Source: Demequina sp. B12 (GTDB lineage Bacteria; Actinomycetota; Actinomycetes; Actinomycetales; Demequinaceae). Taken from it: a stretch of 64,000 bases of DNA. The stretch covers positions 124,001-188,000 of the forward strand of contig NZ_JAPEHU010000002.1 in assembly GCF_028823635.1 (NCBI RefSeq), in the 5' to 3' direction. A model generated the notes under the pieces. That model was not told the origin of the DNA. It searched no databases and saw nothing but the letters and a program-made list of their open reading frames with translations. The translations under genes were made by a program, and so were the position numbers. Below, piece by piece: positions 21,630 through 59,127 of this stretch (the first letter of the stretch is position 1; the number at the start of each line of letters is the position of its first letter).

Positions 21630-22466
21630 CTAAATCAGGCCCAGTTCTCGGAACGCTGACACGAGACCGTTGTCGCGCGGAGGCCGTGCCACGACATCGG
21701 CGTGCGCCATCAGTTCAGGCAGCGCACCTTCGACGACGATGGCCGTGGCGGCTCCTGCCAGCATTTCGAGGTCGTTGGGACCATCACCTGCAGCGACGAC
21801 GTTCTCCGGCCGGACGCCCAGTGCAACTCTGGCTGCTTCCATGCCGACAGCCTTGGTGATGTGCGTGAGGTGAATCTCACCGGTGCGCTCGCCCAGCGAC
21901 TCGTTGGAGCCCGCGACTACGGACACCTCGGGACCAATCTCTGCCACCACATCGGCCATCAGCCCACCGGAGTTGAACACAAAGATCTTGGCGCAATCGT
22001 GCTCGCCCAACGCATCACTGACGACCAAAGCGCCGCGGAACACTTCCCATGCCTGGTGACGCTCCTTGGTGGCCGCAGGCCCGGGCGCCAACGTGTCGAG
22101 CAGTTGCTCCACCGCCGCGGACGCGTACATCGCTTGAGGTGCCTCCAGGGCATAAGTCGCCCCATGGCTCTCGAGAACCTCGACGGCTCGGCGCGTGACC
22201 TCCTGCGGGAACAACGTGCTCGTGATGATGTCGCCACCGATGTCGACGCGTGCGCCAGCTGAACTCACAATGCCGTCAAAACCGGCTGCCGTCAGCAGGG
22301 GAGAGACAGCACAAGCAGGGCGTCCCGTACACAGCAGCGCATAGTGGCCATTTGCGCGCAGCTCGCGGACAGCCTCCACGTGGGCAGGGGGGACCACGCC
22401 ATGGTCCGCATACGTGCCGTCCACGTCCAAGAAGACAGCGCGGTGAGAATCCTCAGCAAAAGTCAC
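21630..22466 (-). CDS. HAD-superfamily phosphatase (Cof-type)
   Basis: The 278-aa protein has HAD motif I (FLDVDGTYADHG), motif II in LLCTGRP and motif IV (GDGPNDLEML), with a large C2-type cap between, as in Cof/YidA sugar-phosphate phosphatases. The substrate is unknown. The GTG at 22466 is preferred because it lies exactly 7 nt from a TAGGGT -10 on this strand; the alternative GTG at 22475 overlaps that -10. It is divergent from, and shares a symmetric promoter with, an F420-reductase-like gene. Confidence 0.9.
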   Translation of the reverse strand: MTFAEDSHRAVFLDVDGTYADHGVVPPAHVEAVRELRANGHYALLCTGRPACAVSPLLTAAGFDGIVSSAGARVDIGGDIITSTLFPQEVTRRAVEVLESHGATYALEAPQAMYASAAVEQLLDTLAPGPAATKERHQAWEVFRGALVVSDALGEHDCAKIFVFNSGGLMADVVAEIGPEVSVVAGSNESLGERTGEIHLTHITKAVGMEAARVALGVRPENVVAAGDGPNDLEMLAGAATAIVVEGALPELMAHADVVARPPRDNGLVSAFRELGLI

Positions 22467-22469
22467 GAG

Positions 22470-22504
22470 AGTCACCCTAACTGTGTGCGTCGCCTAGGGT
22501 GACT
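22470..22504. promoter_or_regulatory. Mirror-symmetric divergent leaderless promoter
   Basis: AGTCACCCTA (22470-22479) and TAGGGTGACT (22495-22504) form a perfect 10-bp inverted repeat around a 15-nt spacer. Each arm holds an outward-facing TAGGGT -10, and each is followed by exactly 7 nt and a GTG (22466 on the minus strand, 22508 on the plus strand). Confidence 0.65.
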
Positions 22505-22507
22505 TCC

Positions 22508-23131
22508 GTGACCGACTCGAGACTTACCGTAGGGATCCTGGGCGCCGGCCGCGTCGGAAAGGCCATCGCCGCGCTGCTTCGCACCGCCGGCTATGACGTG
22601 GCGATGGCGGGCTCGCTCGACGACCCTGGCACTGTGGTGAGCGCCGATGTCGTGGTGCTGGCAGTGCCCCTGCACCAGTACCGCAACCTCCCGGACCTGG
22701 CTGGGACTCTCGTGATCGATGCGATGAACTACTGGTGGGAACTCGACGGCTCCCGGCCCGAGTTTGAAGACGCGACCACGTCATCGTCCGAAGTTGTGGC
22801 ACTCCACCTCCCCGGGGCGCGCATCGTGAAGACACTCAACCATCTCAGTGGCTACGCCCTGGAAGAGCTGGCGCGCCCTCGTGGCAGCGCGGACAGGATT
22901 GCGGTCGCGGTAGCCGGCGACGACTCCGCCGACACTGAGGTCGTGGCCACCCTGGTCGACCACATGGGCTTCGAGCCGGTCCGCGCGGGGAAACTCGCAT
23001 ACGGCGTGAAGTTCGAGCCGCTGACAGAGGCCTTTGGTGCCGATGCTTCCGCAGCCGAGCTGCACGACATGCTTGAGCGGTTTTGGGGCTCTCAACGCGG
23101 GCGGGTAGTAGCCCGCGCTCGCGGCTTGTAG
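22508..23131 (+). CDS. NADP oxidoreductase, F420-dependent reductase family (Rossmann)
   Basis: The 207-aa product begins MTDSRLTVGILGAGRVGKAI, a Rossmann dinucleotide fold (GxGxxG) similar to the NADPH:F420 oxidoreductase/NpdG family. VVLAVPLHQYRNLPDL and VIDAMNYWWELDG follow. It probably transfers hydride to or from NAD(P)H; whether F420 is the partner is unknown, as no F420 biosynthesis genes are in the window. GTG 22508 fits the leaderless signature; GTG 22499 is the alternative. Confidence 0.82.
   Translation: MTDSRLTVGILGAGRVGKAIAALLRTAGYDVAMAGSLDDPGTVVSADVVVLAVPLHQYRNLPDLAGTLVIDAMNYWWELDGSRPEFEDATTSSSEVVALHLPGARIVKTLNHLSGYALEELARPRGSADRIAVAVAGDDSADTEVVATLVDHMGFEPVRAGKLAYGVKFEPLTEAFGADASAAELHDMLERFWGSQRGRVVARARGL
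23096..23117 (+). terminator. Hairpin at the 3' end of the F420-reductase-like gene
   Basis: CGCGGGC (23096-23102) pairs with GCCCGCG (23111-23117) around an 8-nt loop. It lies within the last codons of the gene and before a convergent gene, so it may terminate transcription. There is no U-run. Confidence 0.35.
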
Positions 23132-23556: not shown

Positions 23557-24270
23557 TTACCGTGGCGTGGTCGGTTTGTCTCTATTTCGTGACGTTTGTG
23601 ACGGCAGGGTGCCGCCCGCCGCGAGCTTCATGACGGCACTCGAGAAGTCGACCGTCACCTCGCGGCCTGCGTCAGAGCCGAACTCGTGGCTATAGGTGTC
23701 CCAGGTCTCACCGCGGACGGCACGAGCAAACCCGGACTCCATCAGCAACACGAGTTCCTGTGCTGCACGGTCAATCCGGGACCCCAACGCAGGATCGTTC
23801 ATGTCTTCGGGCGCCGCGAAGAGACTGGTCGGCACCGGCAGCGCACGCAAGTACGCGAACATGCCGCGCACTTCTTGGTCGATCACCAGAGCATGCCGGG
23901 ACGTTCCCGCCGTCGCCGCCAGCACTGCCGGCTTGCCGATGAGGAGATCGTTGTCGAGAACCTGGAAAAATCCGCTGAAGGCTGCCGATGCGCCGGCCTT
24001 GTAGACCGGTGTTGCTGCGATGACGCCATCGGCTTCGGCAAGCAGGTCGATCGCACGGCGGAAGCCGGGCCCCATGAACTGAGTCGACAGTGCTTGCGGG
24101 AGTTCGGGCAGGAGTTCGCGCAGTTCGACCACGCTGATTTCCACATCGTGCCCGTGCGCCCTGGCAAGCGCGACTGCGCGTTGTGCCGTGCGGTCGGCCA
24201 GCATGCTGGTGGACGAGGGATTCGACACTCCGGCCGACACCACCACGATGCGGTACGTCTCTTGGGTCAT
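23557..24270 (-). CDS. NAD(P)H-dependent FMN reductase (CE1759-type)
   Basis: The 237-aa flavodoxin-fold protein has the flavin phosphate loop near its start (VVVSAGVSNPSSTSMLADR) and the ATPVYKAGASAAFSGFFQ segment of NADPH-dependent FMN reductases that partner LLM monooxygenases. It would supply reduced FMN to the LLM-type enzyme in the same operon. It overlaps the MarR gene by 4 nt (ATGA). The last 25 residues are polar and likely disordered. Confidence 0.9.
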   Translation of the reverse strand: MTQETYRIVVVSAGVSNPSSTSMLADRTAQRAVALARAHGHDVEISVVELRELLPELPQALSTQFMGPGFRRAIDLLAEADGVIAATPVYKAGASAAFSGFFQVLDNDLLIGKPAVLAATAGTSRHALVIDQEVRGMFAYLRALPVPTSLFAAPEDMNDPALGSRIDRAAQELVLLMESGFARAVRGETWDTYSHEFGSDAGREVTVDFSSAVMKLAAGGTLPSQTSRNRDKPTTPR

Positions 24271-24722
24271 GACATCTCCAGTGTTGCAGCGATGAGTTTG
24301 CGGTGAAGCGCCTCAAACGTGGCGATTTCTTCGTCCGTGAACGCGGTCTGCATGACGGTGGCGACGTGAGCGCCGTGGCCCCGACCGATCTTGCGTTGGA
24401 GAGCGACGCCTTCAGGGGTGAGGGATAGGTGAGTGGCCCGAGCATCGGCCGGATCCACGCAGCGACTGATCAGCCCGCGGGAGACAAGACGATCGACCAT
24501 GCGCGACAGTGCGGGCTGGCTCAACAGCACCCCGTGGCCCAGGGCGCTGAGCCTCAACGGCTCCTTCGCTTTGGCCAGGGTGTACAGCACGTCGTACTCG
24601 CGGACGCTGAGATCGCACCACACATCATGCGCGGCGAAGGTGCGCATCAGCACGGCATGGGTGGTCATGGCCTGCTCCCATGCGACATTGGCTTCCCGCG
24701 TGCGGCTCTTGGCGCTGGTCAT
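24267..24722 (-). CDS. MarR-family transcriptional regulator
   Basis: The 151-aa product contains the MarR winged-helix core: LSVREYDVLYTLAKAKEPLRL, LLSQPALSRMVDRLVSRGLI (recognition helix) and wing DPADARATHLSLTPEG. It has GAGGA 6 nt before the ATG. Placed between an LLM-type flavin monooxygenase and its FMN reductase, it most likely represses its own operon in response to a small aromatic or oxidant ligand. A palindrome fitting a MarR site lies at 26001-26022 over the operon -10. Confidence 0.92.
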   Translation of the reverse strand: MTSAKSRTREANVAWEQAMTTHAVLMRTFAAHDVWCDLSVREYDVLYTLAKAKEPLRLSALGHGVLLSQPALSRMVDRLVSRGLISRCVDPADARATHLSLTPEGVALQRKIGRGHGAHVATVMQTAFTDEEIATFEALHRKLIAATLEMS

Positions 24723-24729
24723 GGCTTCC

Positions 24730-25917
24730 TCACAAGGTCGGATACACGGCTTGGGTGCCTTCGGAGTCCTGGTAAGGGGAAGCTCCGGTGACGTTGTCGC
24801 CGCGATTAGCGTTGGGGCGTGGCTGCCGGGGCTCACTGTCACCATACTTGGCCTTCACCAGGTCGGCGTGCGAGGGCGGGTTGGCGGGCGCGGCCTGATC
24901 GCGGCGAGACTCGGTCTCCTTGCGCAGCACAGGAACTACTTCTCCGCCCAAGAACTCCAACTGTTCCAGCACCATCTCGACAGGCAGCCCCGCATGGTCG
25001 ATGAGGAACAGCTGGCGCTGGTAATCGCCCACGTACTCGCGGAAGGTGAGGGTCTTGTCGATGACTTCCTGAACAGACCCGACGGCCAGCGGTGTCTGCG
25101 TCGAGAAGTCCTCGAGTGAGGGGCCGTGGCCGTAGACGGGAGACTCGTTGAAGTAGGGGCGGAAGCGGTCGCGGGCCTCCTGCGACGTCTTGCCGATGAA
25201 GGTCTGACCACCCAACCCCACGATCGCGTCCTTGGCGGCGCCGTGGCCGTAGTGTTCGAAGCGTTGGCGGTAGAACTGCACCATGCGCTGGGTGTGTTCC
25301 TTGGGCCAGAAGATGTGGTTCGCGAAGAAACCGTTGCCGTAGTAGGCGGCTTGTTCTGCGATCTCGGGGGTGCGGATCGACCCGTGCCACACGAAGGGGG
25401 GAACGTCGTCCAAAGGGCGGGGAGTGGAAGTGAAGCCTTGGAGGGGTGTGCGGAAGTTTCCTTCCCAGTCGACAACGTCCTCCCGCCACAAACGGTGCAG
25501 CAGGTTGTAGTTCTCCAGGGCGAGGGGCAGTCCTTGGCGAATGTCCTGGCCGAACCAGGGGTAGACCGGACCTGTGTTGCCGCGGCCCAACATGAGGTCC
25601 ATGCGCCCGTGGGTGAGGTGTTGCAGCAGTGCATATTCCTCCGCGATGCGCACAGGATCATTGGTGGTGATCAATGTGGTGGAGGTCGTCACTGTGAGGT
25701 GCTCAGTCTGAGCGGCAATGGACGCGAGCAGCGTGGTGGGGGACGAGGAGAAGAACGGCGGGTTGTGGTGCTCACCGATCGCGAAGACGTCGAGTCCGAC
25801 CTCTTCCGCTTTGAGGGCGATGGCAAGGGTGTTCTTGATGCGCTCGGCCTCGGACGGGGTGTAATCGTTGACAGGGTCGCGGGTGATGTCCGAGACGGAC
25901 ATGATGCCGAACTGCAT
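24730..25917 (-). CDS. LLM-class flavin-dependent oxidoreductase
   Basis: The 395-aa protein begins MQFGIMSVSDITRDP and follows the luciferase-like monooxygenase (TIM barrel) pattern, with VGLDVFAIGEHHNPPFFSSS, HGRMDLMLGRGN and YVGDYQRQLFLIDHAG. It would use FMNH2 from the reductase two genes on to oxidise an unknown substrate. AGGAGG lies 6 nt before the ATG. It leads the LLM-marR-FMN reductase operon. A long polar tail after about residue 345 is probably flexible. Confidence 0.92.
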   Translation of the reverse strand: MQFGIMSVSDITRDPVNDYTPSEAERIKNTLAIALKAEEVGLDVFAIGEHHNPPFFSSSPTTLLASIAAQTEHLTVTTSTTLITTNDPVRIAEEYALLQHLTHGRMDLMLGRGNTGPVYPWFGQDIRQGLPLALENYNLLHRLWREDVVDWEGNFRTPLQGFTSTPRPLDDVPPFVWHGSIRTPEIAEQAAYYGNGFFANHIFWPKEHTQRMVQFYRQRFEHYGHGAAKDAIVGLGGQTFIGKTSQEARDRFRPYFNESPVYGHGPSLEDFSTQTPLAVGSVQEVIDKTLTFREYVGDYQRQLFLIDHAGLPVEMVLEQLEFLGGEVVPVLRKETESRRDQAAPANPPSHADLVKAKYGDSEPRQPRPNANRGDNVTGASPYQDSEGTQAVYPTL

Positions 25918-26000
25918 GGGAGCCTCCTGGGGGTGACGAGCGCGGGACGGATGACGGGCGCCGCGAGGTCTCACGTTGCGGGCCGTCCGCCACTCTCGTA

Positions 26001-30258: not shown

Positions 30259-30302
30259 CCGATGCGTGAGGCTGCCGTGCCCGGCCTTGCCTCACGCATC
30301 GG
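30259..30302. terminator. Bidirectional terminator
   Basis: CCGATGCGTGAGGC (30259-30272) pairs perfectly with GCCTCACGCATCGG (30289-30302): a 14-bp stem with a 16-nt loop, located between the convergent TetR and M3 peptidase genes. Confidence 0.8.
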
Positions 30303-59087: not shown

Positions 59088-59127
59088 CTTAAGGCCCCGT
59101 CACGCCAAAGCGTCACGGGGCCTTAAG
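59088..59127. terminator. Bidirectional terminator between holA and rpsT
   Basis: CTTAAGGCCCCGT and ACGGGGCCTTAAG form a perfect 13-bp stem; after a mismatch ACGC/GCGT extends it, with loop CAAA. Flanked by A/T-rich pairs, it fits a two-way terminator. Confidence 0.9.

Follow-up and report, generated by a model that had tools for sequence, protein, structure and literature searches.

In classical divergent operons with overlapping back-to-back promoters, the -35 region of each promoter overlaps the -10 box of the other, as the -35 positions would at the locus described here, and such operons usually combine -35 elements with a shared operator and a regulator. In Actinobacteria, approximately 20% of genes are reported to be leaderless, with a TANNNT element about 12 bp before the start (PMC3160421). 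In Mycobacterium tuberculosis, the predominant promoter type is TANNNT lacking a -35 motif, and one report states that "Closely juxtaposed divergent promoters are a common feature of the M. tuberculosis transcriptome" (PMC3898074). It also describes leaderless mRNAs for prpD as well as for Rv1129c, the divergent gene encoding its regulator. Bidirectional promoters, as another study presents them, have a shared -10 element and starts that are mostly 18 bp, and also 10 or 23 bp, apart (PMC12825309). In that study, the basal activity of the five Escherichia coli bidirectional promoters tested was too low for competition, which was seen once one direction was strengthened; separate divergent promoters were set apart as unaffected by such clashes and were not counted as bidirectional (PMC12825309). 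Among the literature matches listed, no title was devoted to the promoters of Demequina.

We analyzed a divergent gene pair in a 64-kb stretch (hereafter, the window) of the Demequina sp. B12 genome, which comprises 2.33 Mb in 52 contigs. The pair resembles prpD/Rv1129c in that the genes point outward, both mRNAs would be leaderless and TANNNT without a -35 element is the main promoter type genome-wide; it differs in that the starts were mapped there and are inferred here, and in that the two Demequina -10 boxes are identical and mirror-symmetric (PMC3898074). It is a further example of the known paired leaderless-type promoters, with two near-identical sides. It also resembles the bidirectional promoters described in two reports (PMC12825309, PMC10268837), being a short symmetric site that would serve both directions and leave no room for two polymerases. 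In those promoters one -10 element is shared, whereas here two boxes lie 15 bp apart and the presumed transcript starts 42 bp apart, which places the pair outside the shared -10 class. Given the close fit, it may nevertheless work much as bidirectional promoters do. Unlike the classical divergent operons, the Demequina pair had no -35 element, shared operator or regulator that we could find.

A sequence-only reading of the window had described, at 22464-22510, a perfect 10-bp inverted repeat with a pair of outward-facing TAGGGT boxes that lie 15 bp apart and 7 nt from their respective GTG codons. These details were exact: the arms are AGTCACCCTA (22470-22479) and TAGGGTGACT (22495-22504), the loop is 15 bp long, and the coordinates span the site from start codon to start codon (Table 1). 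The perfect arms form the core of 18-nt arms that match at 16 of 18 pairs, and each arm contains a GTGAC-N4-GTGAC direct repeat. Assuming a spacer of 17 bp, either promoter would have its -35 position overlapping the opposite -10 box by 4 bases. A further in-frame GTG lies upstream within each arm, at 22499 on the plus strand and 22475 on the minus strand; because the list of open reading frames places both starts at these upstream codons, GTG 22508 and GTG 22466 are given here as inferred starts.

Table 1. Coordinates in the window of the divergent promoter site and its two genes
Feature	Positions	Strand	Basis
Left arm, imperfect inverted repeat (perfect core 22470-22479)	22462..22479	-	sequence; 16/18 pairs with right arm
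Right arm, imperfect inverted repeat (perfect core 22495-22504)	22495..22512	+	sequence; 16/18 pairs
Inferred -10 TAGGGT, HAD gene	22474..22479	-	TANNNT 7 nt before GTG; equivalent at 27/30 genus HAD loci, own included
Inferred start GTG, HAD gene; presumed transcript start 22466	22464..22466	-	7 nt from -10; N-terminus length equal to that of the L002 ortholog (by eye)
Inferred -10 TAGGGT, reductase-like gene	22495..22500	+	TANNNT 7 nt before GTG; equivalent at 26/30 genus reductase loci, own included
Inferred start GTG, reductase-like gene; presumed transcript start 22508	22508..22510	+	7 nt from -10
Spacer between -10 elements, 15 bp	22480..22494	.	14-15 bp in five species; sequences unlike by eye
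HAD-IIB family hydrolase gene	21630..22466	-	PF08282 111.1 bits, TIGR01484 51.2 bits
NAD(P)-binding gene, F420-oxidoreductase superfamily	22508..23131	+	PF03807 34.1 bits, cut-off 21.6

The two genes had been read as a HAD phosphatase and an F420-reductase-like gene. The first designation stood at the family level, since the protein passed both HAD-IIB profiles (cut-offs of 20.9 bits for PF08282 and 41.8 bits for TIGR01484); its score against the Cof-type profile TIGR00099 was 100.6 bits, under the cut-off of 137. The second stood at the superfamily level only. The protein passed PF03807, but with 37.3 bits it fell under the NCBIfam equivalog cut-off of 149.8 for the NADPH-dependent F420 reductase (npdG, TIGR01915), and use of F420 by the reductase-like protein is therefore not shown. 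Its best 18 matches among named genomes were all from Demequina. The pair is flanked by an MFS transporter gene and a GNAT-type gene, and neither is a regulator by Pfam. On the minus strand at 23557-25974, genes for a CE1759-family FMN reductase, a MarR-type regulator and a CE1758-family luciferase-like monooxygenase are clustered.

To place the two boxes in the context of the genome, we used a 464-kb sample (the window plus 400 kb), in which a simple script, rather than a gene finder, called 383 genes. TANNNT elements were concentrated at two distances from the start, with 36 sites at 6 nt and 32 at 7 nt, whereas every other spacing from 0 to 19 nt had 1 to 8 sites (2, 4 and 4 at 5, 8 and 9 nt, respectively). 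Altogether, 67 of the 383 called genes had a TANNNT 6-7 nt before the start. The peak indicates that leaderless initiation is routine in this genome, in agreement with the reports on Actinobacteria, and it was also present in three further Demequina samples. In an order relative with 73% GC (G046), the peak was weak (6 and 2 sites), 8 of 245 genes had a 6-7 nt site and none of the 53 divergent pairs was leaderless on both sides, indicating that the leaderless pattern carries over unevenly. The specific pattern TAGGGT-N6,7-RTG was not enriched in the B12 genome over the reversed control (26 versus 53 matches), so a lone match proves little.

Conservation was assessed at the best 30 loci of each protein search (reductase and HAD), the window's own included. 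In the genus, an in-frame start preceded by TANNNT at 6-7 nt was kept at 26 of the 30 reductase and 27 of the 30 HAD loci, the exceptions being L026, L027, L028 and L029 for the reductase and L056, L058 and L060 for the HAD gene. Such promoters were conserved also at loci where the two genes are not adjacent. Together with the 6-7 nt peak, these counts bear out the earlier proposal of two outward leaderless-type promoters, and the reading of both TAGGGT boxes as promoters is well supported at the level of sequence comparison. Sigma-70 promoters with a -35 element were considered and rejected, as a scan of 22400-22600 yielded no -35/-10 consensus site. No terminator-like site was found in the same interval.

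The reductase protein had a match in 52 of 59 genomes, its own included, and the HAD protein in all 44 genomes of the genus, strongly (E below 1e-50) in 41 and weakly in G005, G019 and G021. Within the best 30 loci per search, the two genes were divergent neighbors in 10 of the 44 genomes (at 8 reductase loci and 10 HAD loci), and all 10 pairs had a leaderless-type promoter in each direction. The -10 boxes were separated by 15 bp in the window and at L002 and L033, by 14 bp at L004 and L036, and by more at L021 (29 bp), L022 (33 bp), L025 (34 bp), L023 (73 bp) and L003 (102 bp). When the two proteins were concatenated, their unrooted tree did not group the species with 14-15 bp as an exclusive clade, and the short spacing may therefore be old. 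In L003, the interval between the orthologous promoters holds a 17-bp tandem repeat of 4.2 copies (L003:2128-2199), whose unit contains the complement of TTAGGGT, resembling the adjacent promoter box.

The sequence-only reading had treated the mirror repeat as the key feature of the site, and this view was not sustained. When loops of 0-30 were allowed, the exact palindrome occurred in 1 of 44 Demequina genomes, and in each of the nine relatives that have the gene pair, start codon, leader length or -10 sequence differed between the two sides. At L033, both boxes read TAGGGT and are likewise separated by 15 bp, so that a shorter palindrome is present. The window contained 10 perfect inverted repeats with an arm length of 10 or more and a loop length of 3-20, and the adjoining 400 kb contained 46. 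Ten first-order Markov resamples of the window held a mean of 1.4, indicating that such repeats are commoner here than in random sequence, and the repeat at 22470-22504 was among the shorter ones. Longer perfect repeats were seen at 30259-30302 (14-bp arms, loop 16) and 59088-59127 (13-bp arms, loop 14).

We also compared promoters with one another within genomes, using script gene calls in five Demequina samples (G046 was left out and G001 was added). Only 3 of 7,982 within-genome promoter pairs matched at 16 or more of 18 positions and 7 were identical over the first 10 positions, the window's own pair being included in both counts. Among 271 divergent gene pairs there were 28 combinations with leaderless promoters on both sides, of which the window's pair ranked top (16/18), followed by one at 13/18. 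The likeness of the two promoters is thus uncommon, at about 1 in 1,000 pairs or less, for a site that was chosen for this likeness. A rarity of 3 in 7,982 makes pure chance uncomfortable as an account of this one pair. Nevertheless, the mirror symmetry is probably incidental and, as judged by comparison across the genus, it is a species-specific rather than a conserved feature. A DNA or RNA hairpin was considered and rejected: the single strand folded well, at -14.3 kcal/mol compared with -7.46 on average for shuffled sequences (z -3.62; 1 of 200 shuffles equally good), but RNAs begun at the GTGs would keep just the outer 5 bases of one arm.

Taken together, the locus is best explained as two housekeeping-sigma promoters without -35 elements that stand back to back and would serve the HAD-IIB hydrolase gene in one direction and the NAD(P)-binding reductase-like gene in the other. 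Transcription would begin on the first base of each start codon and yield leaderless mRNAs. With 15 bp between the -10 boxes, a single polymerase would occupy the site at any time. The mirror identity would reflect a species-specific likeness of the -10 boxes and of a few bases downstream, produced by chance or by local inverted copying, and would not mark a conserved operator. We give this explanation as a whole a probability of about 0.8.

A polymerase bound in one direction should, given its footprint, cover the other promoter. With the boxes 15 bp and the presumed starts 42 bp apart, two polymerases should therefore not bind together, and the exclusion that had been proposed for the site is physically reasonable on these distances. 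The geometry favors this part of the proposal, whereas the low basal activity of the E. coli bidirectional promoters counts against competition between the two directions (PMC12825309). Equal, near-identical promoters of this kind would offer a convenient natural construct for measuring promoter competition.

Several other explanations were weighed against that of two simple leaderless promoters. If the inverted repeat were the operator of a transcription factor controlling both genes, its overlap with the -10 boxes would lead to repression of both. In favor of such an operator, the near-palindrome spans both promoters, each arm carries the GTGAC direct repeat, and the symmetry is greater than promoters within a genome usually show. 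A gene for a MarR-type regulator is also located some 1.1 kb past the reductase-like gene (24267-24845). However, the palindrome is single-copy in the genome even when 3 mismatches are allowed, the half-site TAGGGTGACT has only two occurrences genome-wide, both at 22470-22504, the exact form is missing from 43 of the 44 genus genomes and the adjacent MFS transporter and GNAT-type genes supply no regulator. The restriction of both the exact mirror and its half-site to this locus argues against a shared operator, which we consider very unlikely. Still less probable is a placement of the true starts at GTG 22499 and GTG 22475 within the repeat, under other promoters and with coincidental TAGGGT boxes. 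The list of open reading frames chose these codons, and 17 of 21 bases at GTG 22499 agree with the start of the L002 ortholog (by eye), so that the reductase start may lie, or may once have lain, at this codon, but TANNNT is absent 6-7 nt before either GTG, although most orthologs keep one.

The spacing itself, rather than the symmetry, could have been selected as a mutual-exclusion switch that sets an either-or balance between the two gene products. Consistent with such a switch, the 14-15 bp distance recurs in 5 of 10 species despite spacers that are unlike by eye, the lack of an exclusive clade allows an old short spacing, and the reductase start seems to have shifted by 9 nt relative to L002 while 15 bp are found in both (by eye). 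On the other side, the remaining five species have 29-102 bp (the longest, L003, with its tandem repeat), the reductase gene is not the divergent neighbor at 20 of the 30 HAD loci, and no basal competition was seen at the five bidirectional promoters of E. coli (PMC12825309). We regard a selected switch at this pair as improbable. At 22499-22510, where the reductase start seems to lie 9 nt further downstream than in L002, the old L002-type start codon (GTG 22499) now falls within the -10 box.

Back-to-back boxes exactly 8 bp apart, with leaders of 6 nt, were found in all 44 Demequina genomes (83 sites; reversed control, 0 of 44). The same-leader pattern at 15 bp was found in 6 genomes (6 sites; reversed control, 1 genome). 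These patterns, like those of the CATG subset and the order-wide scan below, fix both leaders at 6 nt and so miss pairs with a leader of 7, including that of the window, which at 15 bp and leaders of 7 was rejected as a member of the 8-bp class. In the subset beginning with CATG, distinct places numbered 3, 5, 13 and 77 at 2, 6, 7 and 8 bp, respectively, then 10, 2, 8, 19, 4, 1 and 6 at 9 through 15 bp, and 0-8 per spacing at 16-30 bp. For one pattern of this subset, the reversed control matched 4 times across 44 genomes (3 forward, 1 reverse), and for the other it matched once. The tallies for 9-30 bp and the 83-site sum were recounted by script, and those for 0-8 bp were made by hand only. 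Because many of the 8-bp sites look by eye like a few loci recurring across species, the counts represent sites and not independent events.

Among 198 genomes from the order, 40 had an 8-bp match, comprising all 13 from Demequina and 27 of the 185 others (hand count). Outside the genus the sites numbered 30, compared with 11 for the control; the control sites came from 7 genomes, one of which contributed 5 (hand count). The 8-bp excess is thus strong within Demequina and slight beyond. It is conceivable, though unlikely, that the distance between -10 boxes is under selection in Demequina, at 14-15 bp with a freely changing spacer for the pair described here and at exactly 8 bp for the aminotransferase V/COX2 and M17 peptidase/dihydroorotate dehydrogenase pairs, as a distinct architecture without -35 elements in which one polymerase would gate the other. 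Pairs selected for spacing would differ from the described bidirectional promoters, whose starts are separated by 10, 18 or 23 bp. If such selection operated genus-wide, promoter geometry and no regulator would set the balance of neighboring genes in high-GC genomes lacking -35 elements. The 8-bp class, found in all 44 Demequina genomes, may deserve more attention than the pair in the window. In the B12 genome, 8-bp sites were seen at C21:293415-293452 (L155:3415-3452), C21:302290-302327 (L155:12290-12327) and C21:108825-108862 (L149:8825-8862). By Pfam, the gene pairs at the three sites are an M17 peptidase and a dihydroorotate dehydrogenase, a class V aminotransferase and COX2, and a DUF3515 and an AIRS-family protein.
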